A stretch of DNA of 64,000 nt from Erysipelotrichaceae bacterium (GCA_015059105.1 SVBB01000006.1:1-64000), one strand, 5' to 3'. Shown: positions 30,645 to 52,406, counted from the stretch's first letter. Made by a program: numbers and translations. The notes: generated from the letters alone by a model not told the origin.

Positions 30645-30727
30645 GAAATGTTTCCGTTCTTAATAACCAATTAAGATCTTCCACACATATGATTTGGTTT
30701 TCATCAATGATATGTTTAGATAACTTA

Positions 30728-31513
30728 TCATTTCCTATGTTTTTCTTTAATTTCATTAAGAGAAGATTCGAATCCAATAGACCAATCGTAAGAAGTTAAA
30801 AACTCATTATTATATAAATCGACGTTACCCGCGAGAAAATCATAATAATCACACTTGATATTATGTTTATCTAAAATTAATAAAGCACGCATGAATTCTA
30901 CACATTTAAAGTTAATTTCATTAAGCGTCTGACGTAATCTCCATACCGCATCACGATATAGTATTTTTGCCCTATCGATATCTTTATCTGGCCATAGATA
31001 AGTAATAGCTTGCGACATCGTTAAACTTTTCCCATTAAGCGCGATCAATAAAGCGAATAATTCTTTACTCTTAGAAGAGGAAAAACGAACGACATTGCCA
31101 TTCATGAAACAATCAAAAGAACCAAATGTTTTTACCGTCATCTCTTTTCTTTTATCTTCAATCTCTAATAAATAGTTGGATAGTTTAATCTCATCAATGG
31201 GTTTATAAATGAAACCGATGACGTTGTCTTTGATTTTTTCATCTAAATCATCTAGTCCTAAATTGCCACCGGTGATAAAGACAATCTTGATATCAGATTG
31301 GATTTTTACTAGTTTCTTCGCAAGGCTAACCCCATCAATATGCGGCATGTAAATATCAAGGAAAGCCCCATCGATATAGTTATTCTTCGTGTAAGAAAGA
31401 ATCTTTTCTTCATCATCATTAAAAAAGTGATAATCAGCATCCCAGTGACCGATTATTTTGTTAAGAAAATGAGAAAGGGAAGAGAACTCATCATCAACGA
31501 CTATGACTTTCAT
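30728..31513 (-). CDS. Response regulator with SARP-like winged-helix output
   Basis: Residues 1-115 are a receiver domain: acidic pocket VVDDE, phospho-acceptor Asp in FLDIYMPHIDG, and the conserved Lys in FIYKPID. Residues about 125-225 are a SARP/OmpR-type winged helix (ELFALLIALNGKSLTMSQAITYLWPDKD...AVWRLRQTL). It overlaps the histidine-kinase gene by 20 bp. Its output domain is closely similar to that of the split membrane regulator at 52702-53894, including a shared ending YDWS-x-x-F-E-x-S-L. It is the last gene of the Hsp70/GTPase operon and its likely regulator. Confidence 0.88.
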   Translation of the reverse strand: MKVIVVDDEFSSLSHFLNKIIGHWDADYHFFNDDEEKILSYTKNNYIDGAFLDIYMPHIDGVSLAKKLVKIQSDIKIVFITGGNLGLDDLDEKIKDNVIGFIYKPIDEIKLSNYLLEIEDKRKEMTVKTFGSFDCFMNGNVVRFSSSKSKELFALLIALNGKSLTMSQAITYLWPDKDIDRAKILYRDAVWRLRQTLNEINFKCVEFMRALLILDKHNIKCDYYDFLAGNVDLYNNEFLTSYDWSIGFESSLNEIKEKHRK

Positions 31514-32855
31514 TGCTATCCTCCTTTGGGATTTTAATCACTATTTTAGTCCCTTTTTCAACGCTGCTTTTGATATTAAAAGAGGCGTTGAAAAGCAGTC
31601 TAAATCTTTCACGGCTATTGTTAATTCCGTGACTGGTTTTTTTGATACTATTAATGTCAAAACCTTCTCCGTTATCTTCGATAGTGAGGATATATGATTC
31701 ATCATCTTCTTCCGCGGATATGATGATATGACCACTTTCTTTTTCATTTACCTTGGAATATTTGACAATGTTTTCAACTAGAGGTTGTAAAGAAAAATAA
31801 GGCACAAGGAAATCGCTCCCAGTGATGTTATAAATAATCTGATATGGTTTATTATGTTTGAGGTTTTCTAATTCTATATAATTGTTCACATTTTTCAGTT
31901 CCACATCCAAAGTGACAATATCTGAATCCGCCGCTGCGACATAATCACGAAGGTTTGAAGAGAATAGATCAAGTGCTTTTGCCCCTAAGTCATGACTATC
32001 TTCATATAGCATCTTAATAGTATTCAAAGAATTAAAAATATAATGGGGGTTGATTTGATGGTTGAGGACATTTGTTTGCAGTTCCTTAAGTCTCTTCTCA
32101 AATTCCTCCTTTTCATATGCTTTTTTGCTGACATTAATGGTGTAATTTAAATATATAAGGATATAGATGAACATGATCAATAATGAGACGATTGAATCCA
32201 CTCCCCTATAAAATATTTTTCCATCTGATAGTCGCGAAATAATCTCGATTATTTGAGCATTAAAGAGCAAATAAACAATGGTATAGGTGGCAACGAATGG
32301 GAAATCGTACTTCTTAGTATTGCTCACATAAGCAGAAATATAAAAGAGCAGAAATAGGAAATATACCATAGTCAATATTCTTGAAATCAGTTCAAAGTGA
32401 AAGAAATAGGACACGATGTAGAAGGTTATGATTACAAATAATATGATGATGGATGAATTCCTTTGCACCTTATTATATGGTATTTGATAAGCAGAAATTA
32501 AAAATAAAGCGCAGGAGAGCATCGTTCCAACAAAGAATACATAATGGAAGATATCGATATATTCCCAGTTAATATAAATAAAATCGCAAGAAGTAACAAG
32601 CATCCCAATAAGGGATAGAGACATAAAGAACGTATACCACGATGAAGTCTTGTCGATAAAGTTAGAGATGAATTCGAGGGTCGTTATCACCGCTAAAATC
32701 GCTAACGCAGTAAATAATAAAATAGTCAAATAAGTGTCGATGTTTTCTTTATTCCCAATAGAAAATACATTGGACAAAACAAAATATAAATACACCACAA
32801 TAGTAAATACTAATAACAATGGGATAAAGAAATTACGTAGACGTTTTTTGACCAT
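31494..32855 (-). CDS. LytS-type sensor histidine kinase
   Basis: About seven N-terminal membrane segments (residues 10-235) form the sensor. The His_kinase box NHQINPHYIFNSLNTIK contains the phospho-acceptor His, followed by a HATPase domain with YFSLQPLVENIVKYS (N box) and IEDNGEGFD (G box). At 453 residues there are no extra domains. It lies 54 bp after the membrane-protein gene at 32910 and overlaps the response regulator. The ligand is unknown; membrane state is plausible given the operon's many membrane proteins. Confidence 0.9.
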   Translation of the reverse strand: MVKKRLRNFFIPLLLVFTIVVYLYFVLSNVFSIGNKENIDTYLTILLFTALAILAVITTLEFISNFIDKTSSWYTFFMSLSLIGMLVTSCDFIYINWEYIDIFHYVFFVGTMLSCALFLISAYQIPYNKVQRNSSIIILFVIITFYIVSYFFHFELISRILTMVYFLFLLFYISAYVSNTKKYDFPFVATYTIVYLLFNAQIIEIISRLSDGKIFYRGVDSIVSLLIMFIYILIYLNYTINVSKKAYEKEEFEKRLKELQTNVLNHQINPHYIFNSLNTIKMLYEDSHDLGAKALDLFSSNLRDYVAAADSDIVTLDVELKNVNNYIELENLKHNKPYQIIYNITGSDFLVPYFSLQPLVENIVKYSKVNEKESGHIIISAEEDDESYILTIEDNGEGFDINSIKKTSHGINNSRERFRLLFNASFNIKSSVEKGTKIVIKIPKEDSNESHSR

Positions 32856-32909
32856 ATATTTTTGTAAAATAACTGGTTAATGAGGACCGATGTATAATTT
32901 TAGAAAAGA

Positions 32910-33494
32910 CTAATCTTTTAAAATTAAGATGAGGAGATTAGCAAAGGCTAAAGCGAAACAACCAATCATCGAAATCGCAACGATCATATTTAAAACTGAA
33001 ACCGCTCCAACAGGCATATTATTCATGTTCCAGAAGACGAACATTAAGTATACGAAAATCGCGACGACAGTGAGTACGAAGACGATGATTGTCAACACTT
33101 TAGTAAGAGTGTCTTCTAAATAATTTGTCGCAAATAAGCAGATATCACATACGGCAAATAATTCAAATGCTATTAAAGCAAGTTCGATGAAGAGGAAAAC
33201 ATAATAAGGTATTTGTTCCGCCATAGCAGAAACAAGAATAAAATCAGCAACCGAGCCGATAATAACAAATAGACTCGCGCCATAGACGTTTTTCACATCC
33301 CCGTTGGCTTCTTCCCCGAAGAAATAAAGTAGCGCTCCGACAAAAAGCAATACATCGGCTGTAATTCTAACAAACACAATTGGTGTACCAAGATTGATAA
33401 ATAAACCCAATACCAATGTTACGAGACGCGTCAATAAGCCGATAAGCATAATCGTTCTCGCACTAGCAGCCAATGATCCAAAAAATTTACTCAT
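32910..33494 (-). CDS. Six-TM membrane protein of the Hsp70/GTPase operon
   Basis: No family recognised. The 194 residues are mostly hydrophobic with about six membrane segments and very short loops, and there is no enzyme motif. It lies 16 bp after the gene at 33511. It may be a channel-like or scaffold subunit, but that is a guess from context. Confidence 0.75.
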   Translation of the reverse strand: MSKFFGSLAASARTIMLIGLLTRLVTLVLGLFINLGTPIVFVRITADVLLFVGALLYFFGEEANGDVKNVYGASLFVIIGSVADFILVSAMAEQIPYYVFLFIELALIAFELFAVCDICLFATNYLEDTLTKVLTIIVFVLTVVAIFVYLMFVFWNMNNMPVGAVSVLNMIVAISMIGCFALAFANLLILILKD

Positions 33495-33510
33495 GATTAA
33501 AACCTCCTAG

Positions 33511-34407
33511 TTAATGTCTCATGATCGCTGTGATGATACAGCATATAATTTTTAAAATAAGTAAGATGATGAAGGTAATCGCCGCAAATAATGCAAATAA
33601 GATAGCGACGATACCGATGTTGAAATATAAAGAGATCGGACTAGCGATGTAATAATATTTGACCGGGGAATAAAATACATAATTGCTCACATTATTCCAC
33701 TGTCCTTTCGCATGTGATTCCATATCGCTAGCTAATCCATTTACAGAATCTTTAAAAGATAGCCAATAATCATTAATCTCACTACCCATATTTTTGAAAT
33801 ATGAATATGTTGATATCTTTAAAGCACTGAATAAGTTATTTCTCATCATATTTTGATGGAGATATTTCATTCCAAAACCAAAACTGATGAAAAGAGAGAT
33901 GACCATCGATACCATTACCATAAGGGCGAAAACAAAGGCGATTGCAAAGATGATGGCGACCATCAACAAATATTGCACTAAACCAATGAAGATGATGAAG
34001 ATGATACCGATGAGAATGATGAACAAAGAGAGGAAAAGCATGAAGAATTTCGCCGGGTTAGTGAAGCGATAAATCTTTTGACGGTTATATAAATTATCCG
34101 CATGTCTTAAGTTTTCCGTAAAAGCTTCTTTGCTCGCATCGAGGATATTTTTATTCCAAATGAGATAGAATTCTTTTAAATCCCTTGGGGTTCTGCCGTT
34201 ATTTTTTAAACAATTAACGAAGGCACGAATATATAAGACAAGTGCGTAAATTAAACCCACTACTCCAGCGATGATACCGATGATGCCAAGAAAGATAAGG
34301 CCGATGTATATCGTTAGAACAAGGATGAAAGCCGCGATGACTAAAGCAGTCATTATCGCCGCGAATACTTCTCCTGGTTCATATTTTTTTACAACGTAAT
34401 ATGCCAT
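33511..34407 (-). CDS. Membrane protein of the Hsp70/GTPase operon
   Basis: A 298-residue protein with two hydrophobic blocks: residues 15-65 and 115-175 (two membrane segments each), then a soluble stretch of about 70 residues (MKYLHQNMMRN...NYVFYSPVKYYY) and a final hydrophobic segment near 260-290. No family is recognised. It begins 12 bp after the transglutaminase-like gene, with a GGAGGAG ribosome site. Confidence 0.75.
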   Translation of the reverse strand: MAYYVVKKYEPGEVFAAIMTALVIAAFILVLTIYIGLIFLGIIGIIAGVVGLIYALVLYIRAFVNCLKNNGRTPRDLKEFYLIWNKNILDASKEAFTENLRHADNLYNRQKIYRFTNPAKFFMLFLSLFIILIGIIFIIFIGLVQYLLMVAIIFAIAFVFALMVMVSMVISLFISFGFGMKYLHQNMMRNNLFSALKISTYSYFKNMGSEINDYWLSFKDSVNGLASDMESHAKGQWNNVSNYVFYSPVKYYYIASPISLYFNIGIVAILFALFAAITFIILLILKIICCIITAIMRH

Positions 34408-34419
34408 GTCTCCTCCTTT

Positions 34420-35421
34420 CTAATAATCTAATGTAAGTTTTAGCTGTTTCCCGTTTTTAATATAGGAAACGGATCTGATATTGATCCTAAGATTAGACGC
34501 AACCATCTTTACGCTTGAAGCTAGATTAGTATCAAATTGTTTTTCGCTGATTTCGATGTTGAGATAGAAACACATTTCTTTCTCTTTGCTATTAATCTTC
34601 TCTATGAGTTGGTTACGCAGTTCATAAAACGAACTTATTTCGGTAAGAAGCGCATTCTTATCTTTTGATAAATTGCTTAATCTTTCTAAGGAGTCATCAT
34701 CGCATTTCGGCCATGATGGCTTTAAGAGGTGATCATTAGCAAATGCATTATCAGAATAAAATGCATATTGGTAAGAATAAGGCTTCTTCCCTTTTTGGTT
34801 ATGCCCAATGCCATAAGTTGCATCGAGGTGATAATAATGGTTATTGATTTTTACAATATTCCATGAATGCGGAGATATCGTGCCGTTTACTTTGGCATTG
34901 CTATTAACGATAATGCAGTATAGTCCGACACTATCGGCCAACATTTTATAGGCGGCGGATATCCCGCTACATTGGGCTTTATGATAATAAAGTGCGCTAA
35001 TCGCGTTTTGGTTAAGGATGTTATTGATCTGATAATCGACATTATCGACAAGATAATCGAAGATCATCATATGTTGTTCTAATTCTCCTTTACCTTGACA
35101 CTCCATTTTTATATTCGTGAGGACCTTGCTGATTTCACGATCAATCAAATGTTGTTCATGAACGTAATTTTCTTTATAGATAAGGGTAATATTTTGATTG
35201 ATTCCCATTCCCCTACAACTACACGAAACTTGTGGTTGAACATAATATAATTCGGGGTGATCGCTGATTACGCTTTGGAAAATGTCGCTTACTTTTTGAT
35301 TATCAATACGGGACAGTTCACATTGTTTTTTATGCTGCAGCAAACTTTTATAAATCGTTTGATAAGCTAACTGTTCTTCCTTAGAAAGAATTTTAGAAAA
35401 GTAATAAGCATCTTCCTTCAT
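34420..35421 (-). CDS. Cytoplasmic transglutaminase-like protein
   Basis: Residues about 145-205 carry the Cys-His-Asp triad of the transglutaminase-like superfamily: Cys in AQCSGISAAYKML, His in SPHSWNIVKI, Asp in YHLDATYG. Members act as proteases, transglutaminases or amidases. There is no signal peptide or membrane segment, unlike many bacterial relatives, so it should work inside the cell, perhaps on a component of this operon. It begins 4 bp after the membrane-anchored GTPase gene ends, so the two are tightly coupled. The C-terminal 90 residues are of unknown fold. Confidence 0.8.
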   Translation of the reverse strand: MKEDAYYFSKILSKEEQLAYQTIYKSLLQHKKQCELSRIDNQKVSDIFQSVISDHPELYYVQPQVSCSCRGMGINQNITLIYKENYVHEQHLIDREISKVLTNIKMECQGKGELEQHMMIFDYLVDNVDYQINNILNQNAISALYYHKAQCSGISAAYKMLADSVGLYCIIVNSNAKVNGTISPHSWNIVKINNHYYHLDATYGIGHNQKGKKPYSYQYAFYSDNAFANDHLLKPSWPKCDDDSLERLSNLSKDKNALLTEISSFYELRNQLIEKINSKEKEMCFYLNIEISEKQFDTNLASSVKMVASNLRINIRSVSYIKNGKQLKLTLDY

Positions 35422-35425
35422 ATAA

Positions 35426-36859
35426 TTAATCGACTAAAGAGATGATTTCGTTCTCGTCAAAGGCAATACCTTTTCCTTTACCGTTCATCACCCAGGCGAG
35501 GGCTCTAGCTGCGTTTTTGGAATAAAGTTTTCCATTTCCATCATCCGCTAAAGCAGTACAAGCAAAGAATTGGATGTTTTTAAACTTCGCTTTGAGGGTG
35601 TTAACAAAGTTATCTTCTCCATATTCACGTAAGAAGTTCTCGCAGATTGCATTTTCGGCTTCTAGGAAAGTTGCCTTATGAGATGCGCGATATTCTTCGT
35701 TTCCACTATCGCCAATCTTTTCATCTAAACCAGGTAAATCAAGTTTTGTGAAGACGACCGCACAATCTTTAGTAATTTTTTCTTTAGAATTAAGGTTTGA
35801 TAAGCTATCGACAGTCGTGACGAGCATATCGAGTACTTCGTCTAAACTCATAGAAGAACCGTTAAAGCTAGAAATATCGTTTTTCTTTTCCACTTCTTTA
35901 CGATATTCCTTGATGGAAAGTGGATCGATGATGACGATATAACCTTGTGAGTTTGCATATCCGATTTGACGTTTAAGCGTTTCTTTATCCGCATAAGCTT
36001 CGCCTCCGATATCACAAAGAGAGATTTCATTTTTGACGGCTTGTTTATCTTTCGCCCAGTTGAAACGGTAGAAAGTTAAAGCCATATTGTTGGTCTTAGC
36101 GGGGAAAGCACCATTTTCAATTCCTTGAATATTGTTTTCATATTCCATTGTTCCCTCATCTTCATAATCGAAGTTATATCCAAGCTTCCCAGCATTTTTG
36201 CTTAAAGAATAAATGGACATATTGACGAAACAAGTCTTACCAGAAGATGGTCCACCAATGAGTGGGAAAGTCACTGCGACATGAGCGCCACCACTGGTCA
36301 AATCAAATTGACAGTGAGGACAAATCGCATTGAGTTTTTGTCGACCATTTAAGAAAGTAGTCGGTAACTGATTTCCACATTCACAAGTACGTTTTAAAAT
36401 ACCATATTTTGAAGGGATGAGTTTGGTATGCACTCTACCACAACTACAACGGTAATATGGGAGAGAAATTCTTTCTTGACAGTTAGAACAGTGAGAGACG
36501 ATACCATGCATCTTTCGATAGACGAAGTCGAGGAACCACACGACAGTAAATCCGATGTAGACAATACCCATAAAGATAGAGACGATCAAAGTATGGATAA
36601 TCGTACAGACGAGGACGATAACAGTCGCAAAAACGCTGGTGATAATCGCTTGAACGGTGAAGGCAATAGTTCGAATGAGACTAGTGATTAATCCACCGAA
36701 ACTGAAATGGTGTATAATTCCCGCCCAAATATCGATAAAGCGCAAGAAGAGGTTATATTCAATCTTTCCAAGATTAATGAAAGCACCGAAAATAGTCTCA
36801 AAAAGAGAATACCATCCGGGACCGAAAAAATAATTAATTCTTGCTGGTTGTTTTTCCAT
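35426..36859 (-). CDS. Membrane-anchored zinc-ribbon GTPase (double-GTPase 2-like)
   Basis: Residues about 50-115 contain two or three membrane segments. Residues 124-185 form zinc knuckles (CSNC, CSCG, CECG, CPHC). The GTPase domain follows: P-loop GGPSSGKT at 202-209, a G3-like CDIGGE, and G4 FTKLDLPG (TKxD in place of NKxD). The layout resembles the DO-GTPase/double-GTPase families reported in predicted bacterial conflict systems, encoded near a GAP1 protein as here. I infer that it works at the membrane with the second GTPase at 40296-41432. Confidence 0.82.
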   Translation of the reverse strand: MEKQPARINYFFGPGWYSLFETIFGAFINLGKIEYNLFLRFIDIWAGIIHHFSFGGLITSLIRTIAFTVQAIITSVFATVIVLVCTIIHTLIVSIFMGIVYIGFTVVWFLDFVYRKMHGIVSHCSNCQERISLPYYRCSCGRVHTKLIPSKYGILKRTCECGNQLPTTFLNGRQKLNAICPHCQFDLTSGGAHVAVTFPLIGGPSSGKTCFVNMSIYSLSKNAGKLGYNFDYEDEGTMEYENNIQGIENGAFPAKTNNMALTFYRFNWAKDKQAVKNEISLCDIGGEAYADKETLKRQIGYANSQGYIVIIDPLSIKEYRKEVEKKNDISSFNGSSMSLDEVLDMLVTTVDSLSNLNSKEKITKDCAVVFTKLDLPGLDEKIGDSGNEEYRASHKATFLEAENAICENFLREYGEDNFVNTLKAKFKNIQFFACTALADDGNGKLYSKNAARALAWVMNGKGKGIAFDENEIISLVD

Positions 36860-36873
36860 AATAATATTCCTCC

Positions 36874-37272
36874 TTAAGCCCCAAAAGTGTTTTCCGCTAA
36901 TGAATGGATGTAGGCCGCAAAGGCGTCAACAATACCAAACATAATGCCCATCACTACCTGGTAAACTGCAAAGATGATTACCAAGACAACAAAGACGAAT
37001 GCCACTAGAGATACAATCACCAAAATCGTCCAGCTCGTGACCACGAAGTATGAGATTGCAATAGAAGCGAAGAAAGCTGTTTTAATAATGCACCAGAAAG
37101 TGTGCAAGGAGAAAAACGAATCGTTATCTGACCATGTATCTCCGATGATTGCAAAACAGTTCATTGCATGTTCAAACATTCTTTTGAATGAACCGACGAT
37201 CAATATTCCGATGATGCCAAAAGCTTTATGGAATACGAAATCTTCAAATACGTTAGATTTAATGTTAGCCAT
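36874..37272 (-). CDS. Small membrane protein of the Hsp70/GTPase operon
   Basis: A 132-residue protein with membrane segments near residues 14-30, 60-80 and 80-115. No family is recognised. AGGAGG precedes ATG 37272. It lies 14 bp after the 58-residue membrane protein gene and 14 bp before the GTPase gene, so co-expression is near certain. Confidence 0.75.
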   Translation of the reverse strand: MANIKSNVFEDFVFHKAFGIIGILIVGSFKRMFEHAMNCFAIIGDTWSDNDSFFSLHTFWCIIKTAFFASIAISYFVVTSWTILVIVSLVAFVFVVLVIIFAVYQVVMGIMFGIVDAFAAYIHSLAENTFGA

Positions 37273-37286
37273 ATTATTCCTCCATA

Positions 37287-37463
37287 TTAAAGATTGCCAA
37301 TTCCTAGAACATCAGTGATAAAGGCTTGGATGATGAAGAAGATTCCACGATAAAATCCCCATACAGCCCCGATCATAATGCTAGCGGCGAGAACTCCTGC
37401 AAAAAGAAACGGACTTGCAAAGATGATTCCCACACCTAGTAAAAAACCAATAATAGATAGCAT
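37287..37463 (-). CDS. 58-residue hydrophobic membrane protein
   Basis: A short frame encoding 58 residues with two hydrophobic stretches (about 3-25 and 24-48) and almost no charge. A strong GGAGGAG site stands 6-8 bases before ATG 37463. The 14-bp gaps on both sides match those of its neighbours, which argues that it is a real gene even though it is below usual annotation cut-offs. It may be a small subunit of the membrane part of the system. Confidence 0.75.
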   Translation of the reverse strand: MLSIIGFLLGVGIIFASPFLFAGVLAASIMIGAVWGFYRGIFFIIQAFITDVLGIGNL

Positions 37464-37477
37464 AGTATCTCCTCCTT

Positions 37478-40279: not shown

Positions 40280-40295
40280 CACACCTTCTCCTTTC

Positions 40296-41432
40296 TTACA
40301 ACTTCTTGGTTGTCGTGACAAATTTGTATTGGGCTAAAATCCAAATTAATGGGTCGAGGATATTTTTAGGTTTTGGACCTTCTTCTGGAAGTTGTTCGAA
40401 TTCATCGGGAGCTGTTCCAAGAGCGCTGCAAGCGAAAAAGCCAACTTTAGTAAAAGCTTTGAGTCCTTGCGTTAATTCCCCGTCTCCTTCAAAGAAGTTG
40501 CCAAGTAGTCCATCCATATCAATCTGACATGATTCGAAATGGCTCTTGATGAAAGTTCCATATTTTTCATGTGGTGAAACATCATAGATTGCCATCGTAT
40601 CATCGATCAAACCATATTTTTCTAAAACGTCCATCTTCGTGAAGACGAGAGCGATTGGAATATCGATGTTTCCACGGATGTTAGTTTTTCTTCTAATCTG
40701 CTCCACAATATTGGATAAAACAGTTTCAATGTCTGTATTTTTCTGTGGTAAAGATACTCCTTTGGCCGCTAATACCTTACGAATTGACGGGACCTGTAAT
40801 GGGTCGAGGAGGAGGATGATACCTTTGGAGTTAGCGATATATTGGTTATAAACATCCATCGAGTTTGAAGAATCTAAGTTTTCACCTGCGGTATCATAGA
40901 AAGTCAAAGTGACGATGTTTTTAATGTTATTTTTCTTATCCATAAAACGGAGAGGGAAAATGAGAGGTGGGGTTTCACCGGCGTCAGTCGCAGTGATGAC
41001 TTGATGGGCCTCATATAAGGGCTCCCCGTAGAATTGGTTATAATGGTTTTTGCTCTCTTCATCCGCGGAGATTGCTAAAGAACAATTGAAGCGAAGAGAC
41101 ATTTTCTTTCTAATTTCGTGAATTAAAACACCGATGTAATTACTTTTACCAGTAGCTTTCGCTCCTAATAAAGCAATCGGTAAAGATATTTCATTTAAAA
41201 AATCACGTGGAATTGCGCGTTGAATATGTGGACAAAGAATAGTCTTAGACGCGTGGTTGCAGTTCATGCAGCGACGCACATCCTTTGGATTGACACTACT
41301 ATCGGGATTTCTCTGCACTTTGTTTGGGCACGGTGCAGTCGTATCGCCAGCGATGTTATAAGAACACAAAACTTTGCATTCTTCTAGAGTGTGCTCGTTA
41401 TAACAGTACGGACAAGTAAATCTATTAGCCAT
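40296..41432 (-). CDS. Zinc-ribbon GTPase (double-GTPase 1-like)
   Basis: Residues 7-70 hold Cys-rich zinc knuckles (CPYC, CMNC, a later CPH). The GTPase domain has P-loop GAKATGKS (90-97), G3-like YDTAGEN, and G4 FTKMDVLEK. There is no membrane segment, unlike the second GTPase at 35426. In related loci such GTPases switch or polymerise on a signal. It sits between the J-like protein (9 bp upstream) and the GAP1-like gene (16 bp downstream). Confidence 0.82.
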   Translation of the reverse strand: MANRFTCPYCYNEHTLEECKVLCSYNIAGDTTAPCPNKVQRNPDSSVNPKDVRRCMNCNHASKTILCPHIQRAIPRDFLNEISLPIALLGAKATGKSNYIGVLIHEIRKKMSLRFNCSLAISADEESKNHYNQFYGEPLYEAHQVITATDAGETPPLIFPLRFMDKKNNIKNIVTLTFYDTAGENLDSSNSMDVYNQYIANSKGIILLLDPLQVPSIRKVLAAKGVSLPQKNTDIETVLSNIVEQIRRKTNIRGNIDIPIALVFTKMDVLEKYGLIDDTMAIYDVSPHEKYGTFIKSHFESCQIDMDGLLGNFFEGDGELTQGLKAFTKVGFFACSALGTAPDEFEQLPEEGPKPKNILDPLIWILAQYKFVTTTKKL

Positions 41433-41441
41433 AAGAACCTC

Positions 41442-44400
41442 CTATAATTTTTCTTGTCTTCTAAGCTTCACATAGCAACCATTTTCACTTTTCACAAAGA
41501 GAGCGAATTTAGCTCCAAGCGGTAAAGGTGGGCAAGTGAAGGAGAGTGAACCTTTATACTTCTTTCCTATAAATCCTTTTTTCAAAGTAATAGCAGGGAA
41601 GGAAGTTAGTTCATCACCAGAATTTTTATCTAGCGGTAATTTACGATCATGATAACGGAGAGTAGTTTCAGGAACTGTAGCCTCGTGATCACATTCAAAA
41701 CTCACCGTTAATTTACAAGATTTCCCTACCACCCCAGGGTGATCGATAGCAAAGAACACCACTTCTCTAGTACGAGGAGTGATCACATCATCAATATGAG
41801 TAGCGCGGGAATATATTTTGTTGCCACCCACCACTAATTCCGAGAATAAAGAGATGTAGTGGCTAACATTTTTCTTTAAAGGTAATTTAAAGCCATCTTG
41901 ACTTAAGAAATCGCTTGGTTTTCCTTCATAGACATCGTCAGCTTCTTCTAGAAAATCGTTGACAAAATGGGAGTTACTAACTTTGACATAGATTTTTGAA
42001 GCGGATTGGTTCGGAGTTCCTTTGATAATCAAAGTATTTTCTGTCTCTTCATAAGAAAGTCCATCGATACCAGTGATAGTATTGACGGGAATCGGCTCGC
42101 TGATGATGAATAATTGGTCATTAGCGATGTAAGGATAAACGAAACCGACAGATCCGACAGGAAGAGTGAATATCTTATTGCCGTTATTATCTTTTTTAAT
42201 GTCGATGAATGATAAGCCATTAATCATCTTGGCTTGTTCGCTGATCTTGGTAATTACATTAGTGATAATCGAACTAGATTTTGCATTAGCGAATAATAAT
42301 TTTGCATTTCCTGTATCATTTTCATCAAAAGAAATATTAAATGCACTATCGCTTATCTGATTAACTTTCACATTTTTAAGTGGGGAAAGAGCGCTGAAAG
42401 TTGTAAATACTTGTTTGCTGCCTCTCGAAGAGATGATTCGACCGTTATTTTCATAATTAACGATGATCAAATAACCGACACTCTGCGCCGTTGGTGAATC
42501 AGTGAAACCTTTTAAAGTTGCTTCTACTTTACGAGCACTAGTTTTGCTGATTGGAGCAATAGCGTTATCGGAACAATATACTTCGATGGATTTAGCGTTA
42601 GCAGGGGCGCTATAAGAGACCTTGATAATATTTGGCTCCATCGATTGGACAACGTTATTCACTTCTTGGAAAAGCACAACCGGGCTCATCGCTTTGGTGA
42701 GAGAAGAATTAACATCTGCACGCGTTGCAAAAACAGCATAATAATATTGCACCGCACTCACCACACCGCTATCATCAAAGAAATTTAATGAAAGATTATT
42801 GATAACAATCTCGCCATCGGTTGCCGATGTCGGCGCACTACCGATTTTCTTGATGACGGTATATAGATTCCCATCTGCATCTTTTCCAACATCCCATTCG
42901 ATACGAACAAATTTATTATCGTTGACCATAACCTTAAGGTTACTTGGCGCATTAGGCGGATATTTGCTCATGAAGGCTTTCGCATCAGAATAGTCAGAGC
43001 AAATCTCTAATGAAGCGATGGCGCATTTGATTGCCTCACTGATGCGACCACCATTCACAAAAGTGCGGGCTTTATTAATTTCTGCATTCGCCTTCGCGAT
43101 ATTATTCTTGATGTCGAGAATGAGATCGTCAGTGACTTTGCCGTTATATGTTAAATATTTATTTTTTAAGGCAATCGCTAAAGAAAGAGCTCGCATGAAG
43201 CATTTTTTGACAATTGCTTCATCGATGGTTTTAAGTTCTTCTTTATAAGCTGCCCCTAATGTTTCTTCTTCTTTTTTACGTTTTTCAATTTCTTGAGTGG
43301 CTTTATTAATCTTGCTTGCCACTTTACTACCCGCGAAATCTGGTTCGGGGACGCATGAACGTATAGAGCTGATCGCCGCATTGGCTTTCGCCTCATCATA
43401 AGCGACAGATAGTAGTTCTTTATCTAATAAAGCGGAAGCTTGATCGAATAATTTTTTATTGTTGTAATTAGCTTTACATGTTGGACATGTCTGACTCTTC
43501 TTGGTGAAAGCCATCTTTGAACCACAGTTCCAACATGAAACTTCAAGAGGGCGACCACAATGTGGACAAACTGTCGCGCCTACTTCATAGATTTTTCCAC
43601 AATCATCGTATGGACAAATCTCGAGATGTTTGATACCAAGTTGGCCTTTGACACTATCCGCATCATCACCGCCACTTACCATCAAATTGTAATATTTTAA
43701 TCCCGCGCCAAGCATCTCTTCCACTTCGTTGATTGGAAGTTTGGTACGCGATTGAATGATCGTCGCAAAATCATAATATTCTTTTAAAGTGATATCTTTT
43801 GCGCCATAAGATTTGCGGAGTCTAAAATTCCCCCACACTTCGTCTTTAAGCATGATATAAAAATCATATTGTTGACGAGTTTTCTTGTCTTTTAAAAGAA
43901 TACTTTTTACAAGACCACAAATAGTATTAGCGGTCTGTTTGACCTTAAGATCACTTTTCTTATTCGCTTCCTGATATACCCTTTGTTGAGCAGCATCGAT
44001 TTCAGATTCGCTTGCGCTATTAGCGATGCCGAGGAATTCATACATATCTTTCTTTGCCGGAGGAGTTGCTAAAATATCGCTGACCTTATCGAAGTCACTA
44101 AGCGGAATCACATTTGTAATATTATCGATATATTTTACGGCTTTATTAGAATTGAATTTATTGAAACAATCTTCTAATTCTGGGAACGTAAAATATTTCA
44201 TCGTCTTATTGACGGTGTTGCATAAATCTTGTAATTCACTGCGGTAAATGATGCCATTACTCTTCACTTTTGAAGAGATGATTTGCATGACATCATCAAG
44301 TTTGAAGTGCTTTGCTCTTTCAGCTTCTTCCTTCTTTTTTGCGGGATCTTTGAGCAAGGTTTCTTCAATATCTGAACGAAGTTCTATTAAGCGACGAGAA

Positions 44401-44543
44401 ACGATGTCACCGCTTGTATTGCCACATGCCGAGGCGATGGCTTTAGTAATTTCGTTAGCGTTATTTGCATCGATACCAAGTTTGCATGCGATGAAATAAT
44501 TATATTTAGGATTCTTAAGCTCCTCTGGTGTACGTACGCTCAT
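41442..44543 (-). CDS. J-like/zinc-ribbon/FN3 protein, 1033 residues
   Basis: The order is: a helical N-terminus; a J-domain-like segment at about 166-228 (DMYEFLGIANSASESEIDAA...KTRQQYDFYI) in which the HPD that activates Hsp70 is missing; two zinc ribbons at about 310-357 (CPYDDCG..CPHCG and CWNCG..CPTC); a coiled-coil/helical part; then at least two fibronectin-III-like domains from about residue 530 (NAPSNLKVMVNDNKFVRIEW) and more beta-rich sequence to the end. It follows the two Hsp70 genes and probably links them to the GTPases or to clients. Confidence 0.72.
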   Translation of the reverse strand: MSVRTPEELKNPKYNYFIACKLGIDANNANEITKAIASACGNTSGDIVSRRLIELRSDIEETLLKDPAKKKEEAERAKHFKLDDVMQIISSKVKSNGIIYRSELQDLCNTVNKTMKYFTFPELEDCFNKFNSNKAVKYIDNITNVIPLSDFDKVSDILATPPAKKDMYEFLGIANSASESEIDAAQQRVYQEANKKSDLKVKQTANTICGLVKSILLKDKKTRQQYDFYIMLKDEVWGNFRLRKSYGAKDITLKEYYDFATIIQSRTKLPINEVEEMLGAGLKYYNLMVSGGDDADSVKGQLGIKHLEICPYDDCGKIYEVGATVCPHCGRPLEVSCWNCGSKMAFTKKSQTCPTCKANYNNKKLFDQASALLDKELLSVAYDEAKANAAISSIRSCVPEPDFAGSKVASKINKATQEIEKRKKEEETLGAAYKEELKTIDEAIVKKCFMRALSLAIALKNKYLTYNGKVTDDLILDIKNNIAKANAEINKARTFVNGGRISEAIKCAIASLEICSDYSDAKAFMSKYPPNAPSNLKVMVNDNKFVRIEWDVGKDADGNLYTVIKKIGSAPTSATDGEIVINNLSLNFFDDSGVVSAVQYYYAVFATRADVNSSLTKAMSPVVLFQEVNNVVQSMEPNIIKVSYSAPANAKSIEVYCSDNAIAPISKTSARKVEATLKGFTDSPTAQSVGYLIIVNYENNGRIISSRGSKQVFTTFSALSPLKNVKVNQISDSAFNISFDENDTGNAKLLFANAKSSSIITNVITKISEQAKMINGLSFIDIKKDNNGNKIFTLPVGSVGFVYPYIANDQLFIISEPIPVNTITGIDGLSYEETENTLIIKGTPNQSASKIYVKVSNSHFVNDFLEEADDVYEGKPSDFLSQDGFKLPLKKNVSHYISLFSELVVGGNKIYSRATHIDDVITPRTREVVFFAIDHPGVVGKSCKLTVSFECDHEATVPETTLRYHDRKLPLDKNSGDELTSFPAITLKKGFIGKKYKGSLSFTCPPLPLGAKFALFVKSENGCYVKLRRQEKL

Positions 44544-44599
44544 ATGATAAATTCCTTATATTTAAAGTAATAATTACACTGCTAAACAAGTGCTAAAAA

Positions 44600-46732
44600 C
44601 TAATTGCCACTTGCAAGGGAAGAACCAATCGACTTGAAAGTGGTAACGAGTTGACTCAAGTCAACCTTCTTAGCACAGCCTGGGGAAGCGATTTGGTTAA
44701 GGAACGATTGATTGCTGTCGGCGACGCCTACCGCATATATCGTTGCTCCTTTATTTTTCACATCATTCGCGGAGTTTTTCGCTACTTCTGGTTCCCACCA
44801 TTCGCCATCTGTTAAAACGATGATAATCTCTGTGCCAGCTTGCACTGATCCCCCGCCACCGAAGGCGCTTTTAAGAGAAAATTTTGGTTTAGCCCCACCA
44901 CTCGTATTCATTCTGTAATACCTTAAGTAATGGTTGAATGGGTCCGCGCTTGTGCCACCATCAGCATCTAATGCATTAACCGCCGACATGATACGTGATT
45001 TATTTTGTTCATGATCTAACACCATTTGACAATTTTCATTGAAGGAAATGAGTGAAACATGGGTGAAAGATAAATCTATTTGATTTACAAATTCTTCGAC
45101 AGCTTGAACCGCCGCTCTGATACCAGACCCATACATAGAACCAGAAATATCGATCATGAATGTAACATCAAATACCGGTTTACGGCTCTCAGCTTTCTCT
45201 TTCTTTAAACGCGCTTCAATTTCACTTAAGGATTCAGTGATTGGACACTGTTTAACATTCAAGGATTGACCGCCTTGAATCTTGGCTTTCACTTCCACGA
45301 CACCGTTTTGGTTATATAGATATGAAACGACAACTTGGTTCTTTCCGCTTGGGAAACCTGTTATTTCATATTTATATAAAATATTTGCGTCATAAGGATC
45401 CTCAGTCTCGCCTTGGAGAACATAGGCTTCCATCTTTGTGCCTTGATAGGAATAACTCTTATCGAAGTCTTCTCCAACATTGGAATTTTTCTTGATGACG
45501 ATGGAGTTAATTAATTTATCACTTTCATCATTTTCCCAAATCAATAAGCCTAAAGAATGGGAAGTGATATCTTTGATACTGTTATTAGACAGGGTGAAGG
45601 CTGCTGGTTTTTCTCCCCCAGAGAAATTCGCCATCCCCAAATTAACGGGATTAAGAGTCAGGGTTCCAAATTTGCATAGATGGGCTTGCATAGCTGCCCC
45701 TGCGGCGACGATAGAGTCAACTTTGTTTCCGATGATGCGTGGTTTTTTTCCGAATTCTCTTTCCACTGCTTCTGCAATCTGTGGCATTCTTGTGGAACCA
45801 CCGACAAGGACGACCTCATCGAGATTCTTCCAAGAAAATCCTCCGCCAATTTCTGTGAAACACTGCTCTGTTAAAAGCATCGTTTCATTGAGTAAATTTT
45901 CTGTTGCACGATCAAAATCAGCGCGTGTTATCTCGTATTTTCCATACATTCCATCACATTGAATGGCAATATTAGTAGATGGAACATTAGTTAAGACCTT
46001 CTTGGCTTTTTCACATTTGACCATGAGCTCGTTAAAATCTTCAGGGTAGGCGGTGATATCAATGCCAAATTCGCTATTGAATTTATCGACGACAAAATCA
46101 ATCAAAGCGCGATCCCAGTCTCTTCCTCCGAGTTGGTGGTTACCATTAGTGCAAAGCGGGGTGACGTTTGGTCCGACAATCTTTGCAATCGTGACGTCAA
46201 AAGTACCACCGCCAAGGTCATAAACCATGACATTTTTTGTTCCGACCCCAGTTAAACCATAAGCGATGATTGCTGCCGTTGGTTCGTTGAGTATTTTTAA
46301 TACTTTAAGACCTGCTCTTTCACCGGCATGAATAGTAGCCTGTCTTTGAGCTTCATTAAAATAAGCTGGGCAAGTGATAACTGCTCCTTCAATTTCCACA
46401 TCATTAGATTCTTCAATCTGTTTTTTGAGATTTTCCAGAAAAATAGCCGACAAATCTTCAGCAGAATAATCTTTTCCGTCTAAATATGCCGAATAATTTG
46501 GCTCTCCCATCTGGGACTTATAGAATGAAGCAGTGTTAGTGTTTCCACTAGCTTGTAAGTCTTTTGCTTCTTGTCCGATGAGAATTTGCCCACCTTCGAT
46601 ATAGACTACCGAGGGGGTAGTTTCCTCACCGATTTCATTTTTTAAAATATTTATTTTGGAGGTACCCTCATCAAAGAGAGCAACCGCCGAATAGGTCGTG
46701 CCTAAATCAATTCCAACATTAACTTTTTTCAT
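44600..46732 (-). CDS. Hsp70-vWA fusion protein
   Basis: Residues 1-370 are a full Hsp70 ATPase domain (GIDLGTTYS, NEPTAAIIAYG, YDLGGGTFD, LVGGSTRM). Residues about 385-500 are a divergent substrate-binding beta domain. Residues about 515-700 are a von Willebrand A domain whose MIDAS motif starts DISGS (about 528) and continues with GGTSAD and LTDGEW. The helical lid of normal DnaK is replaced by the vWA domain. MIDAS domains bind partners through a metal ion, so this chaperone may recruit a specific target. ATG 46732 is used; a TTG at 46747 could add five residues. Confidence 0.93.
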   Translation of the reverse strand: MKKVNVGIDLGTTYSAVALFDEGTSKINILKNEIGEETTPSVVYIEGGQILIGQEAKDLQASGNTNTASFYKSQMGEPNYSAYLDGKDYSAEDLSAIFLENLKKQIEESNDVEIEGAVITCPAYFNEAQRQATIHAGERAGLKVLKILNEPTAAIIAYGLTGVGTKNVMVYDLGGGTFDVTIAKIVGPNVTPLCTNGNHQLGGRDWDRALIDFVVDKFNSEFGIDITAYPEDFNELMVKCEKAKKVLTNVPSTNIAIQCDGMYGKYEITRADFDRATENLLNETMLLTEQCFTEIGGGFSWKNLDEVVLVGGSTRMPQIAEAVEREFGKKPRIIGNKVDSIVAAGAAMQAHLCKFGTLTLNPVNLGMANFSGGEKPAAFTLSNNSIKDITSHSLGLLIWENDESDKLINSIVIKKNSNVGEDFDKSYSYQGTKMEAYVLQGETEDPYDANILYKYEITGFPSGKNQVVVSYLYNQNGVVEVKAKIQGGQSLNVKQCPITESLSEIEARLKKEKAESRKPVFDVTFMIDISGSMYGSGIRAAVQAVEEFVNQIDLSFTHVSLISFNENCQMVLDHEQNKSRIMSAVNALDADGGTSADPFNHYLRYYRMNTSGGAKPKFSLKSAFGGGGSVQAGTEIIIVLTDGEWWEPEVAKNSANDVKNKGATIYAVGVADSNQSFLNQIASPGCAKKVDLSQLVTTFKSIGSSLASGN

Positions 46733-46771
46733 AAGAGTACCTCGCAAAAAAATAAATAATTTTTTAAATAA

Positions 46772-48451
46772 TTAAGCTAAAGTGAGTTTAGAAGCGACAT
46801 CCATACCGACTTTATCGGCATCGCCACCTTTTCTCACTGGTTTAAGGACGTGTTTCACACCAGAATTAATTTCGATGAGAGTGAGAGTCAATTGTCCGTT
46901 CATATCAACGTCGAGTTGAATGTCAACTGGAGTGGACGCTGGAATAGCTGGTGAGAAAGCGATTGGCATATCTTCATAAAGTTCTGCACATTCGTCTGCG
47001 GCGACATCAGCATTCAAAGATTCGTTTTCCATAATCTTGAGGTTGATACTATCGACGAGATTATTACCTTCTGCGATGACAAGGCCCTGTCCACCACTGA
47101 GTTGCGCGTAGGATGCTGAGGCTGGTTTAGGTGTATCTTTAACGATGAGGTTATAATATCTTTCTTCACCGCCATTATAGTAACGGAAGCAGTAAGATTT
47201 AGTGCATAATTCAACGACCTTATTGACTGTACCATTGCTACCAGCAAATTCTGTAGAAGCTCCACTGCTTAAAGCGAATGGGCTATTTGCATCACCACCG
47301 AATGCTGCTGATTCGCTAGTTGGAGCCACTACTTCACCAGTCGCTTCATCAATAGCTAAACCACTAGCCACTAGAGCAGCACCATTAGAAACAGCCTTAT
47401 CTGGATCAAACGACACTAATGGTTTGTTATACTGTGCTGTTAACCCAGCTTCGACTTGTTTCATTCTTGTCGATCCACCGACTAAGATGATTTCATCGAT
47501 TTGATCGATCGTCATGCCTTTCTTAGTGAGCATATCGTCGATTAAAAGAATCGTTTGATTGAATAAGTCCGCTGTTAATTCATCAAATTTTTCTTGGGTG
47601 ATTTCCACACGATATTTATTACCATCAAATGATGGAGTGACAGTTGCAGTTGGTTTAGCAGTGAGCATCTTCTTGGCTGCTTCAATCTTCTCAGAGAAGA
47701 AAGCTTTCATTTCTGGATCTTCATCTAAAACCGAACGATCAACACCGGTATTATTGCAGAATTCATCTTTGACATAATTCGCTAATGCTGCATCCCAGTC
47801 TTTACCACCGAGTTGGTGATTACCACCAGTTGTGATGACTTGGTATTTACGATCAGTGCCTTCAAAATCAAGTCTCATAACTGTACAGTCGAAAGTACCA
47901 CCACCTAAGTCATAAATTAAAACTGTTTTATGAATATTTTCATTTCTGGAATTACCATAAGCGATAGCCGCCGCGGTTGGTTCATCCATGATTTTTAAGA
48001 CTTTTAATGGTTGTCCATTTGCTAAAGTGACATTTTCACCAGCTAATCTAGTGGCCGCACGGGCTGCATCACCAAAGTAAGCTGGACAAGTGATGACCGC
48101 ACCTTCAATTTCTTCGCCACCTAACGCTAACTCCGCATCAGCGATAAGTTTCTTTAAAATAAGGGTAGAGACGGCAGAGGCACTATATTCAACACCATTG
48201 ACTGTTGCACGATAGTCAGGATCACCCATGTAGTTTTTAATTCTTTCTACTAAACATTCAGGATTCATCGCCCCCGCTTCTCTAGCCACGGAGCCAACAG
48301 TCACTGTTTCTCCATTTGGATCAAAGAAAACGATAGATGGAGTTGTCTTTTCTCCTTCGCTAGATTCAATGTTGACGATGTTTTGTGTTTCATCAACATA
48401 AGAAACAACTGAGTATGTTGTTCCTAAATCAATACCAACTTTTTTACCCAT
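46772..48451 (-). CDS. Hsp70 family protein without C-terminal lid
   Basis: A 559-residue Hsp70 with all ATPase signatures (GIDLGTTYS, DEPTAAAIAYG, YDLGGGTFD, LVGGSTRM). After residue 385 comes an acidic/Ser-Ala linker, then a divergent beta domain; there is no helical lid and no EEVD-like end. Position in the operon and the mismatch with canonical DnaK (about 610 residues) argue for a dedicated system chaperone, not housekeeping DnaK. It lies 15 bp after the GrpE-like gene and 39 bp before the Hsp70-vWA gene. Confidence 0.93.
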   Translation of the reverse strand: MGKKVGIDLGTTYSVVSYVDETQNIVNIESSEGEKTTPSIVFFDPNGETVTVGSVAREAGAMNPECLVERIKNYMGDPDYRATVNGVEYSASAVSTLILKKLIADAELALGGEEIEGAVITCPAYFGDAARAATRLAGENVTLANGQPLKVLKIMDEPTAAAIAYGNSRNENIHKTVLIYDLGGGTFDCTVMRLDFEGTDRKYQVITTGGNHQLGGKDWDAALANYVKDEFCNNTGVDRSVLDEDPEMKAFFSEKIEAAKKMLTAKPTATVTPSFDGNKYRVEITQEKFDELTADLFNQTILLIDDMLTKKGMTIDQIDEIILVGGSTRMKQVEAGLTAQYNKPLVSFDPDKAVSNGAALVASGLAIDEATGEVVAPTSESAAFGGDANSPFALSSGASTEFAGSNGTVNKVVELCTKSYCFRYYNGGEERYYNLIVKDTPKPASASYAQLSGGQGLVIAEGNNLVDSINLKIMENESLNADVAADECAELYEDMPIAFSPAIPASTPVDIQLDVDMNGQLTLTLIEINSGVKHVLKPVRKGGDADKVGMDVASKLTLA

Positions 48452-48466
48452 AAAAATTCCTTCCTT

Positions 48467-49639
48467 TTATTGTTGTTCGTATTTATAAACATCCACTTTA
48501 CATAAGTAGATGACTTTACCGCCGTAAAGATATGTATCGGTATGTCTAAAGGCAATCGTCTTGTCGAGTTCCTCTTTATTTGTTGGAACAAATTTCAGCA
48601 TACGATTAGTCTTCATGTCATAAACGTTAGAGACATCGATATCAATCTCCACTCCCAAACGTGAGAGAATATCGCTAGTTGAGGAGATGACAAAGATGAG
48701 GACATCGCTATAAAGAGATGTTTTGTTATCTTCGTTAATAGCCTCCATAGTATTCTCGATTTTCTTCTTAAGTTTGAGATAGAAATTAGTCACAATCTTG
48801 TAAGATGGGAGAAGAAGCGCATCGGCATAATTAGCATCCACACTCGCAGCAACTGCCTCCACTTCTTTATATGCTTCATCAAGCAAAGCATTATCTTTTA
48901 AGATTGCTTCTATATTTGCTTTATTCTCTTCGACAAGTTTAATGACATCATTAAGTGAATAAGCACCTTCTTCTTTCGCTTGTTCATCGCTTTCTTCAAC
49001 GATGACGTTTTCAGTTTCTGGCTCTTTAACATAGTTATCCACTTTACGCATTGGGATAGTTGCTAAATCTTTACCATCGAGTAAAAATTTCTCCCCATCA
49101 TATTCGATAGAGAAGTTTGCTAGCATCTCCACAAAATCATCATCGAGGTAACCGAGATACTTTTTTGTTGTTTCAATATCTGTAGAAAACTTAGCGACAT
49201 TCCGCAAAGTATTTTTCGCATCCTCGCGATAGGAAATAAGACCCATGATAATTTGTTTGAGGAGAGTATAACCAAAATCTTCGCGATATTTGTTGAGCTC
49301 ATTTTTCATCTTTACAATCGTTTCATCTTTAGTTTTCGCTAAGCGAATAGAATCGCGCAAAGCATTAAAATATTGTTTGAGCAAAACAACGATTTCTTCA
49401 TATTTTGGTTCTGGTTCAATTGGTTTTTCTTGGGCAGGTTCTTCGTTAACAATTTCTTCATTAACTGGCTCTGCTTCTAGAGGTGTCTCTTCAATAACGA
49501 TCTCTATTTTCTCTTCAGGATTTGCTTCTACCGGCTGTTCTTTCTTTTCCTCAATAACAGGCTTTTCTTCCTCGTTAGAAGACTCATCATTAATTGGTTC
49601 AATCACAATCTTGTCTAAATCAAAAACTGATATTGTCAC
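48467..49639 (-). CDS. GrpE-like nucleotide-exchange factor
   Basis: The 390-residue protein opens with an 85-residue Glu/Pro-rich disordered region. A long coiled coil follows (about 80-125), then helices, and a C-terminal stretch (DILSRLGVEIDIDVSNVYDM...GGKVIYLCKVDVYKYE) with the look of the GrpE beta domain that opens the Hsp70 nucleotide cleft. It is the first gene of the operon and directly precedes the Hsp70 genes, which supports an exchange-factor role. It starts at GTG 49639 with AAGGGGG upstream. The GrpE call is moderate because similarity is weak and the protein is twice the usual size. Confidence 0.65.
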   Translation of the reverse strand: MTISVFDLDKIVIEPINDESSNEEEKPVIEEKKEQPVEANPEEKIEIVIEETPLEAEPVNEEIVNEEPAQEKPIEPEPKYEEIVVLLKQYFNALRDSIRLAKTKDETIVKMKNELNKYREDFGYTLLKQIIMGLISYREDAKNTLRNVAKFSTDIETTKKYLGYLDDDFVEMLANFSIEYDGEKFLLDGKDLATIPMRKVDNYVKEPETENVIVEESDEQAKEEGAYSLNDVIKLVEENKANIEAILKDNALLDEAYKEVEAVAASVDANYADALLLPSYKIVTNFYLKLKKKIENTMEAINEDNKTSLYSDVLIFVISSTSDILSRLGVEIDIDVSNVYDMKTNRMLKFVPTNKEELDKTIAFRHTDTYLYGGKVIYLCKVDVYKYEQQ

Positions 49640-49657
49640 AATATAAACCCCCTTTAC

Positions 49658-49673
49658 TTTTATAGTAAAAATA
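49658..49673 (-). promoter_or_regulatory. Promoter element of the Hsp70/GTPase operon
   Basis: TATTTTTACTATAAAA lies 18 bp before the GTG start of the GrpE-like gene. The identical 16-mer occurs at 53905-53920, 10 bp before the split membrane regulator. It contains a TATAAA -10-like box. It could be a shared promoter or an operator for the SARP-like regulators. An inverted repeat TAGCA/TGCTA lies next to it at about 49672-49689. Confidence 0.45.
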
Positions 49674-49800
49674 GCATCATAAGTGCTAAAAAAGCGCTAT
49701 AGTGTAAAGTCCTTTTAAAAAAATTATTTAAGGCTTTTTGAGTTAGTTAATACTACTTTTGGAGTAATAAATATTAACCTTAGTTAACTTAGACACGGGT

Positions 49801-49829
49801 TTGAACAAGGCTCTGTAACTTTTTATAAT
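49801..49829 (+). promoter_or_regulatory. Sigma-A promoter of the radical SAM gene
   Basis: TTGAAC, a 17-bp spacer and a perfect TATAAT lie 26 bp before the start codon. Two direct copies of TTAGTTAA (49743-49750 and 49780-49787) lie upstream of the -35 box and could bind an activator. Confidence 0.75.
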
Positions 49830-49854
49830 TTTTTATAGAAGCGAGGGTATAGCC

Positions 49855-50970: not shown

Positions 50971-50988
50971 GAAAGGAGGATGTTAAAT

Positions 50989-51156
50989 ATGTTCGTTTTG
51001 ACTAATGAGCTCTTAGCCGAAATCGAAAGCTCTATCATCGAAGAGGAAATAGATCTCTCCGTAGAAGCAGAGCCAGATTGCTACACTTGCCAAGATGCAT
51101 GCCATAGAGAATGCTCAGGCAACTGCGGTGGTCCACAAAAATCTGGTCAACCATAG
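50989..51156 (+). CDS. Cys-rich RiPP precursor peptide, 55 residues
   Basis: A frame too short for usual gene calls. AAAGGAGG stands 8-9 bases before ATG 50989, and the gene lies 18 bp after the radical SAM stop. The first 30 residues are acidic and helical like a leader (LLAEIESSIIEEEIDL). The last 25 hold five cysteines spaced C-x2-C-x3-C-x3-C-x3-C (residues 31, 34, 38, 42, 46) followed by GGP. Regularly spaced Cys after an acidic leader, downstream of a SPASM enzyme, is the pattern of sactipeptides and ranthipeptides. Maturation and activity are inferred. Confidence 0.8.
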   Translation: MFVLTNELLAEIESSIIEEEIDLSVEAEPDCYTCQDACHRECSGNCGGPQKSGQP

Positions 51157-51170
51157 GGACGATGTCAATA

Positions 51171-51207
51171 AAAAAGGCAGTTCTCAACGTAGAATCCGCC
51201 TTTTTTT
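51171..51207 (+). terminator. Terminator of the radical SAM/peptide operon
   Basis: AAAAAGGC pairs with GCCTTTTT, continued by TTCT/AGAA inside, ending in seven T, 15 bp after the peptide stop. Confidence 0.85.
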
Positions 51208-51215
51208 GTCCTTTG

Positions 51216-51437: not shown

Positions 51438-51446
51438 ATAATAACT

Positions 51447-52398: not shown

Positions 52399-52406
52399 GA
52401 GACCAT

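Follow-up and report, generated by a model that had tools for sequence, protein, structure and literature searches.

An island-borne Hsp70, GTPase and GAP1 operon in an Erysipelotrichaceae bacterium, a possible rare version of a known double-GTPase system

What purpose can be served by two Hsp70s, a GrpE-like factor, two GTPases and a two-component system when their genes stand in a single row? This question is raised by an operon of 14 minus-strand genes (30728-49639) found in a 64,000-nucleotide stretch of the genome of an Erysipelotrichaceae bacterium (SVBB01000006.1:1-64000), hereafter the window, which is part of contig 19 of a 1.50-Mb assembly in 26 contigs. In our judgement, the chances are about evenly balanced that this operon, carried on an island, is an expanded form of the Hsp70/GrpE theme of GAP1-N2 double-GTPase systems, i.e. 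a rare version of a known kind. What it adds to the known theme is a vWA domain in place of an Hsp70 lid, a J-like domain devoid of HPD motif, a protease and a LytS/regulator pair, a location on an island at hepT, and the portability of its regulator. Double-GTPase/GAP1 systems are predicted conflict machines; here the whole Hsp70-type set is held in one compact cassette on a variable island, and it is therefore movable and testable as a unit.

Operon content and comparison with described systems

The 14 genes are closely packed, with intergenic distances of -26 to +56 bp, most of them are preceded by a ribosome-binding site, and the widest gaps precede the kinase gene (54 bp) and gene J (56 bp). 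Terminator-like matches were at chance level (12 vs 12.9 expected), none of them inside an intergenic gap. The gene count given in the original prediction proved right once a 58-amino-acid (aa) open reading frame (37287-37463) was included, which has a good ribosome-binding site and is shorter than the default cut-off for open reading frames. Likely starts were revised to 46732 for the Hsp70-vWA gene and to 40279 for the GAP1 gene. Matches above the Pfam cut-off were obtained for two DO-GTPase2, GAP1-N2 and GAP1-M, two HSP70, VWA, His_kinase, Response_reg and Transglut_core domains (Table 1). Most of the protein families initially listed were thus confirmed, whereas FN3 was not, and there are four membrane proteins without other domains (58, 132, 194 and 298 aa), not "five or so". 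A plain duplicated heat-shock operon and a chance neighbourhood of genes were both considered and rejected.

Table 1. Features of the operon and of the island that carries it, with coordinates in the window (aa, amino acids; TM, transmembrane helices; SBD, substrate-binding domain)
Feature	Coordinates	Strand	Basis
Response regulator, 261 aa, receiver + winged-helix-like output domain	30728..31513	-	Response_reg E=1.6e-13
LytS-type sensor kinase, 453 aa, about 7 TM, without large outer domain	31494..32855	-	His_kinase E=1.4e-16, hydropathy
194-aa membrane protein, 6 TM	32910..33494	-	hydropathy
298-aa membrane protein	33511..34407	-	hydropathy
Transglutaminase-like thiol protease, 333 aa	34420..35421	-	Transglut_core E=8.7e-6
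F, membrane-anchored zinc-ribbon DO-GTPase2, 477 aa	35426..36859	-	Pfam E=3.5e-10; GGPSSGKT, DIGGE, TKLD motifs
132-aa membrane protein, about 3 TM	36874..37272	-	hydropathy; no Pfam family
58-aa protein, two predicted TM	37287..37463	-	open reading frame with ribosome-binding site, hydropathy
H, GAP1, 933 aa: GAP1-N2 + GAP1-M, polar C-terminal tail	37478..40279	-	GAP1-N2 E=1.6e-11, GAP1-M E=3.5e-6
I, soluble zinc-ribbon DO-GTPase2, 378 aa	40296..41432	-	Pfam E=5.6e-8; GAKATGKS, DTAGE, TKMD motifs
J, J-like / zinc-ribbon / beta-rich C-terminal protein, 1033 aa	41442..44543	-	Pfam, phmmer
K, Hsp70-vWA, 710 aa: ATPase domain, SBD-beta, short helix, vWA with DxSxS replacing lid	44600..46732	-	Pfam, motif, alignment
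L, Hsp70, 559 aa: ATPase domain, degenerate beta region, without linker motif, without lid	46772..48451	-	Pfam, alignment to DnaKs
GrpE-like protein, 390 aa: acidic N-terminus, helical middle, GrpE-like C-terminal part	48467..49639	-	Pfam, hhalign
27.6-kb genomic island with operon	30645..58279	.	collinear flanks in congener contig 5
hepT 5' remnant, broken at right end of island	58280..58342	-	comparison with congener hepT

The combination had been thought undescribed, which is mostly wrong. In their main text, Kaur et al. (2020, eLife 9:e52696, PMC7159879) name Hsp70/GrpE as a recurrent second theme of GAP1-N2 double-GTPase systems, found in about 14 % of GAP1-N2 neighbourhoods. It comprises GAP1, a zinc-ribbon GTPase, a membrane GTPase, an FN3 protein to which DnaJ is fused, and an Hsp70 with GrpE, in some cases accompanied by another, truncated Hsp70. 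As presented there, genomic logic places the family among conflict systems, a statistical association links GAP1-N2 systems with multicellular bacteria, and transglutaminase-like peptidases are rare partners in the related VMAP systems. The operon corresponds to the theme so described in almost all its components, sharing with it soluble and transmembrane zinc-ribbon DO-GTPases, GAP1-N2/GAP1-M, an Hsp70 with a GrpE-like factor, transmembrane proteins, a second Hsp70 with a degraded substrate domain and a large DnaJ-like protein beside a GTPase. Beyond that main-text description, it displays a vWA domain replacing the lid of the main Hsp70, a J-like domain lacking HPD, and the inclusion of a transglutaminase-like protease and of a LytS/regulator pair.

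The DO-GTPase2 and GAP1 matches support the proposed link to double-GTPase/GAP1 conflict systems. The P-loop, the Walker-B Glu and the (N/T)KxD motif of TRAFAC-type DO-GTPases are intact in both GTPases. Both carry a zinc ribbon, and F has hydrophobic N-terminal segments and CxxC pairs, so that the pair consists, as in the theme, of two zinc-ribbon GTPases of which one has N-terminal transmembrane helices. In contrast with the membrane GTPase as published, no C-terminal transmembrane helix was found in F. The genes of I and of the GAP1 protein H adjoin, with a 26-bp overlap or a 16-bp gap depending on the GAP1 start chosen.

Both Hsp70s show intact ATPase motifs and lack the helical lid (SBD-alpha) when aligned with DnaKs. 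In K, HSP70 (E=2.1e-99, residues 6-505) is followed by VWA (E=4.6e-17, residues 522-685) with an intact metal-site motif (DISGS at 528); SBD-beta is retained and the vWA domain occupies the position of the lid. In L, the HSP70 match (E=1.5e-76) covers only positions 2-377 of the profile, in keeping with the second Hsp70 of the theme, whose substrate-binding domain is reduced or absent. For GrpE and DnaJ, the Pfam assignments come from searches with excised fragments: residues 240-390 of the GrpE-like protein gave GrpE as top-ranked but sub-threshold match (E=0.011, profile 22-164 of 165), and hhalign against four GrpEs gave a weak match over the same span (P=0.016). Likewise, DnaJ was the top-ranked, sub-threshold match of residues 163-229 of J (E=0.0012, full profile 1-63 of 63), and phmmer aligned this region with the J domain of DNAJA3 (E=0.019; hhalign weak), with QEA at the HPD position; no HPD motif occurs anywhere in the 1033 aa of J. 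Its zinc ribbon matched DZR below the cut-off of that family (E=1.6e-4). FN3, present in the large DnaJ-fused protein of the published theme, had no Pfam match in J, where only a weak similarity (E~0.06) to the gp130 FN3 in PDB was obtained. AlphaFold models of the GrpE-like (single-sequence AF2, pLDDT 36) and J-like proteins were too poor (pLDDT 36-38) and were not used for fold searches.

The original prediction spoke of a full dedicated chaperone cycle combined with a GTPase switch at the membrane. The joining of a chaperone cycle to a membrane GTPase is supported, but "full" overstates the case: two features of the canonical DnaK cycle are absent, namely the helical lid in either Hsp70 and HPD in the J-like domain. 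The operon shares with DnaK-DnaJ-GrpE the Hsp70 ATPase domains with conserved nucleotide-binding motifs and the GrpE-like and J-like partners; it differs in having no lid and no HPD and in not being organised as a heat-shock operon, and a separate ordinary dnaK is located on contig 16 of the same genome. Among plasmid-collection records, the dnaK of this organism comes closest to Bacilli and Mollicutes genes, and the organism may belong to an RF39-like uncultured Bacilli lineage. MoxR-vWA ternary systems (VMAP and others) likewise combine a chaperone ATPase, vWA and variable effectors, some of them, according to the main text of Kaur et al., with transglutaminase-like peptidases. Here, however, the ATPase is an Hsp70 and not an AAA+ MoxR, the vWA domain is fused to the chaperone and there is no VMAP.

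The transglutaminase-like protease has a readable Cys-His-Asp set and no evident signal peptide, and was considered cytosolic. It resembles the NCBIfam MAG6410 family (E=5.9e-23, under its cut-off) and PDB entry 9crn (E=5.1e-10).

Genomic island and distribution of relatives

The only available congener (G001) is collinear with the window on both flanks of 30645-58279, which is replaced there by about 0.68 kb; a mis-binned contig was therefore rejected. The 0.68-kb stretch ends with an intact hepT (PF01934, E=1.1e-21) beside mntA. In the window, the mntA partner (58335-58814) is intact and hepT is cut by the island after about 20 codons. Since hepT is intact in the congener and broken by the island here, the operon has either been acquired at a HEPN-MNT toxin-antitoxin site or been lost from it. 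Among those island genes that were scanned, none was recognised as an integrase, and a direct repeat of at least 11 bp was not found at the two island ends. At the right end (58127-58348), the hepT remnant meets a fragment resembling, by eye, part of a RhuM-type protein, i.e. gene debris.

The distribution of GAP1-N2 is sporadic and very rare in the phylum (1/392 genomes sampled in the phylum, 1/395 in the class and 2/279 in the order). The second GAP1-N2 gene of the order was rejected as a relative: it is a solitary gene (402 aa) with neither GTPase nor Hsp70, lying between phenylalanyl-tRNA synthetase and sigma factor genes (G077, L108 15150-16358). The Hsp70-vWA fusion was found in none of 274 genomes of the order, which had ordinary DnaKs only, nor in viral contigs. 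No close relative of the GTPase was detected in 113 related genomes, nor in genome contigs by single-sequence search; its homologues were absent from phage and viral-contig collections and just two were found on plasmids, where the GAP1 and J-like proteins had no close relatives. Annotated plasmid dnaK loci were rejected as Hsp70s of such systems, being ordinary hrcA-grpE-dnaK-dnaJ clusters.

Genome contigs were further scanned for the GTPase with two peptide patterns, derived from the GTPase of the window and from a Rhodococcus plasmid copy, so that the count leans to actinobacterial copies. This yielded 80 loci, all actinobacterial (81 with the Rhodococcus plasmid copy). GAP1 was encoded within 3 kb on the same strand in 78 of the 81, the other three being on small or truncated contigs, and no Hsp70 was encoded near the GTPase in any of them within the fetched region. 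Because of these two counts, the core is GTPase plus GAP1 and the Hsp70 set a minority add-on, consistent with the published proportion. Scattering of the genes in homologous genomes had been proposed as refuting a single system, to which these loci give a partial answer: GTPase and GAP1 stay together in 78 of the 81 actinobacterial loci, but no Hsp70 accompanies them within the fetched region. In the Rhodococcus, Mycobacterium and Propionibacteriaceae GAP1-N2 systems, as in the window, the GTPase directly adjoins GAP1 (22-28 % identity to the GTPase of the window); they differ by the lack of Hsp70 and, for the Rhodococcus plasmid copy, by the proximity of two TerD/TerF-like genes, namely TerD-vWA(TerF) genes (L009 18448-22488). 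On a plasmid of Rhodococcus pseudokoreensis (L013 9989-15977), genes for an Hsp70, a TPR protein, GrpE and an FtsK/SpoIIIE protein stand in a row adjoining TnsA/TniB/TniQ-type transposition genes; this row, which lacks a GTPase, may be an Hsp70-based cargo system.

The LytS/regulator pair

The operon had been credited with "its own" two-component system, a description that fits poorly. Orthologues of the response regulator (52 % identity) were found with their kinases in two genomes of another family. In the first, that of an uncultured small-genome bacterium (G076), the pair is divergent to a type VII-like locus comprising WXG100 proteins, an FtsK/SpoIIIE ATPase and a large, 1074-aa coiled-coil membrane protein (L122 4947-13498). 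In the second (G086), it adjoins genes for an AAA-AAA-M41 protease and a partner protein. More distant LytS/regulator pairs are common in the family, and one occurs elsewhere in the genome studied here. Given that orthologous pairs stand next to unrelated machines elsewhere, the LytS/regulator pair represents a portable regulator and is not peculiar to this system. This points to one kind of membrane sensor being common to several NTP-driven machines that are otherwise unrelated in these bacteria, and offers a handle for finding more such machines. The output domain of the response regulator matched Trans_reg_C at just E=0.11.

At the G086 locus (L120 10826-14747), the AAA-M41 protein (941 aa) combines a Clp-like AAA domain, an FtsH-like AAA domain and an M41 protease, and adjoins an acidic repeat protein with an FtsK-gamma-like domain. 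The island itself holds a decayed second LytS/regulator copy (52702-53894), in which 53334-53894 resembles the transmembrane half of a kinase, and 52702-53346 joins a kinase-type transmembrane segment directly to the DNA-binding output domain of a regulator, without kinase or receiver. The product of the latter could be a membrane-tethered one-component regulator.

Proposed function and competing explanations

Most likely, the operon encodes a membrane-proximal, NTP-gated conflict or envelope-stress switch, with the Hsp70s as conformational or assembly elements; the interactions, trigger, effector roles and biological purpose proposed here are inferred. The switch would consist of two paralogous zinc-ribbon GTPases, one soluble and one membrane-anchored, with GAP1 holding them. 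A trigger, which may be an invader protein or a misassembled envelope protein, would be recognised by Hsp70-vWA together with the J-like/zinc-ribbon protein. The two lidless Hsp70s would then, through ATP cycles that the GrpE-like factor resets, set a threshold and drive assembly rather than client refolding, and the GTP-bound GTPases would carry the complex to the membrane, where the small transmembrane proteins and the transglutaminase-like protease may act as effectors. The LytS/regulator module would report the state of the membrane and tune expression. Ordinary substrate refolding by these Hsp70s is unlikely because, according to established Hsp70 biochemistry, it would call for the missing lids and HPD. 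A more specific proposal, which we put forward as speculative, is that a folding chaperone, Hsp70, has here become an assembly switch coupled to GTPases: a metal-dependent vWA domain would replace the lid, an HPD-less J would dock without the usual firing of ATP hydrolysis, and the output would go to the membrane GTPase/GAP1 under the control of a portable two-component module shared with type VII-like and AAA-protease loci. The lid-to-vWA swap and the HPD-less J-like domain together make a specific claim on how an Hsp70 could work as a switch.

As regards the role of such a switch, genomic context favours conflict over envelope stress: an island that is absent from the congener and ends in a HEPN-MNT gene is a variable site of the type at which conflict genes accumulate. 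Envelope stress keeps some weight because no known effector domains were found and because of the other partners of the regulator. The family matches above the Pfam cut-off, the agreement with the published gene set, the adjacency of GTPase and GAP1 in the actinobacterial loci, the sporadic distribution of GAP1-N2 and the portability of the regulator pair also speak for the proposed switch. Several points weigh against the switch as a double-GTPase conflict system. No toxin, nuclease or pore domain was recognised among the operon proteins, PADLOC models gave marginal matches only (E 0.003-0.005, unrelated models), and GrpE, J and FN3 were assigned below threshold or could not be confirmed. The host, a species with a small genome, is not evidently among the multicellular bacteria linked to GAP1-N2. 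Conservation of the full set is accepted on the authority of Kaur et al., since the searches yielded no relative of the Hsp70 type. No experimental study of any double-GTPase system was found in the open-access literature searched.

Narrowing the conflict role to a true anti-phage double-GTPase system, in which an infection cue would lead to membrane assembly and the transmembrane proteins and protease would kill or arrest the cell, gives a possible explanation, albeit one we hold with reserve. It agrees with the classification of Kaur et al., with the transglutaminase-like partners they mention for VMAP, and with the HEPN-MNT site of the island, but is at odds with the lack of any known effector domain or PADLOC match of note, and with GTPase homologues that are absent from phage and viral contigs and nearly so from plasmids. 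The same lack of nuclease and toxin domains, together with the membrane-rich gene set, the TM-only LytS kinase and the type VII-like and AAA-M41 loci beside the regulator orthologues, would suit envelope assembly or quality control instead of defence. In that case the lidless Hsp70s and GTPases would help to insert, assemble or export surface proteins, and the LytS pair would switch the machine on in response to a disturbed envelope. We regard this as doubtful: more stability would be expected of such a machine than absence from a collinear congener and nearly all relatives and residence on an island at a toxin-antitoxin site, and the genome retains its ordinary dnaK.

It is unlikely that the row consists of two or three adjoining units, i.e. 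a chaperone/GTPase/GAP1 core (37-50 kb), a membrane/protease group and an unrelated trailing regulator pair. Such a division would account for the regulator pair standing beside unrelated genes elsewhere and for the widest gaps, which precede the kinase gene and gene J; however, all 14 genes are co-directional and closely spaced, terminators do not exceed chance, and the membrane GTPase F sits inside the membrane/protease group.

Away from the operon, the region 12512-23263 of the window holds a 3171-aa open frame (13538-23053) without Pfam match. This region is missing from the collinear congener and thus represents a second variable insert.

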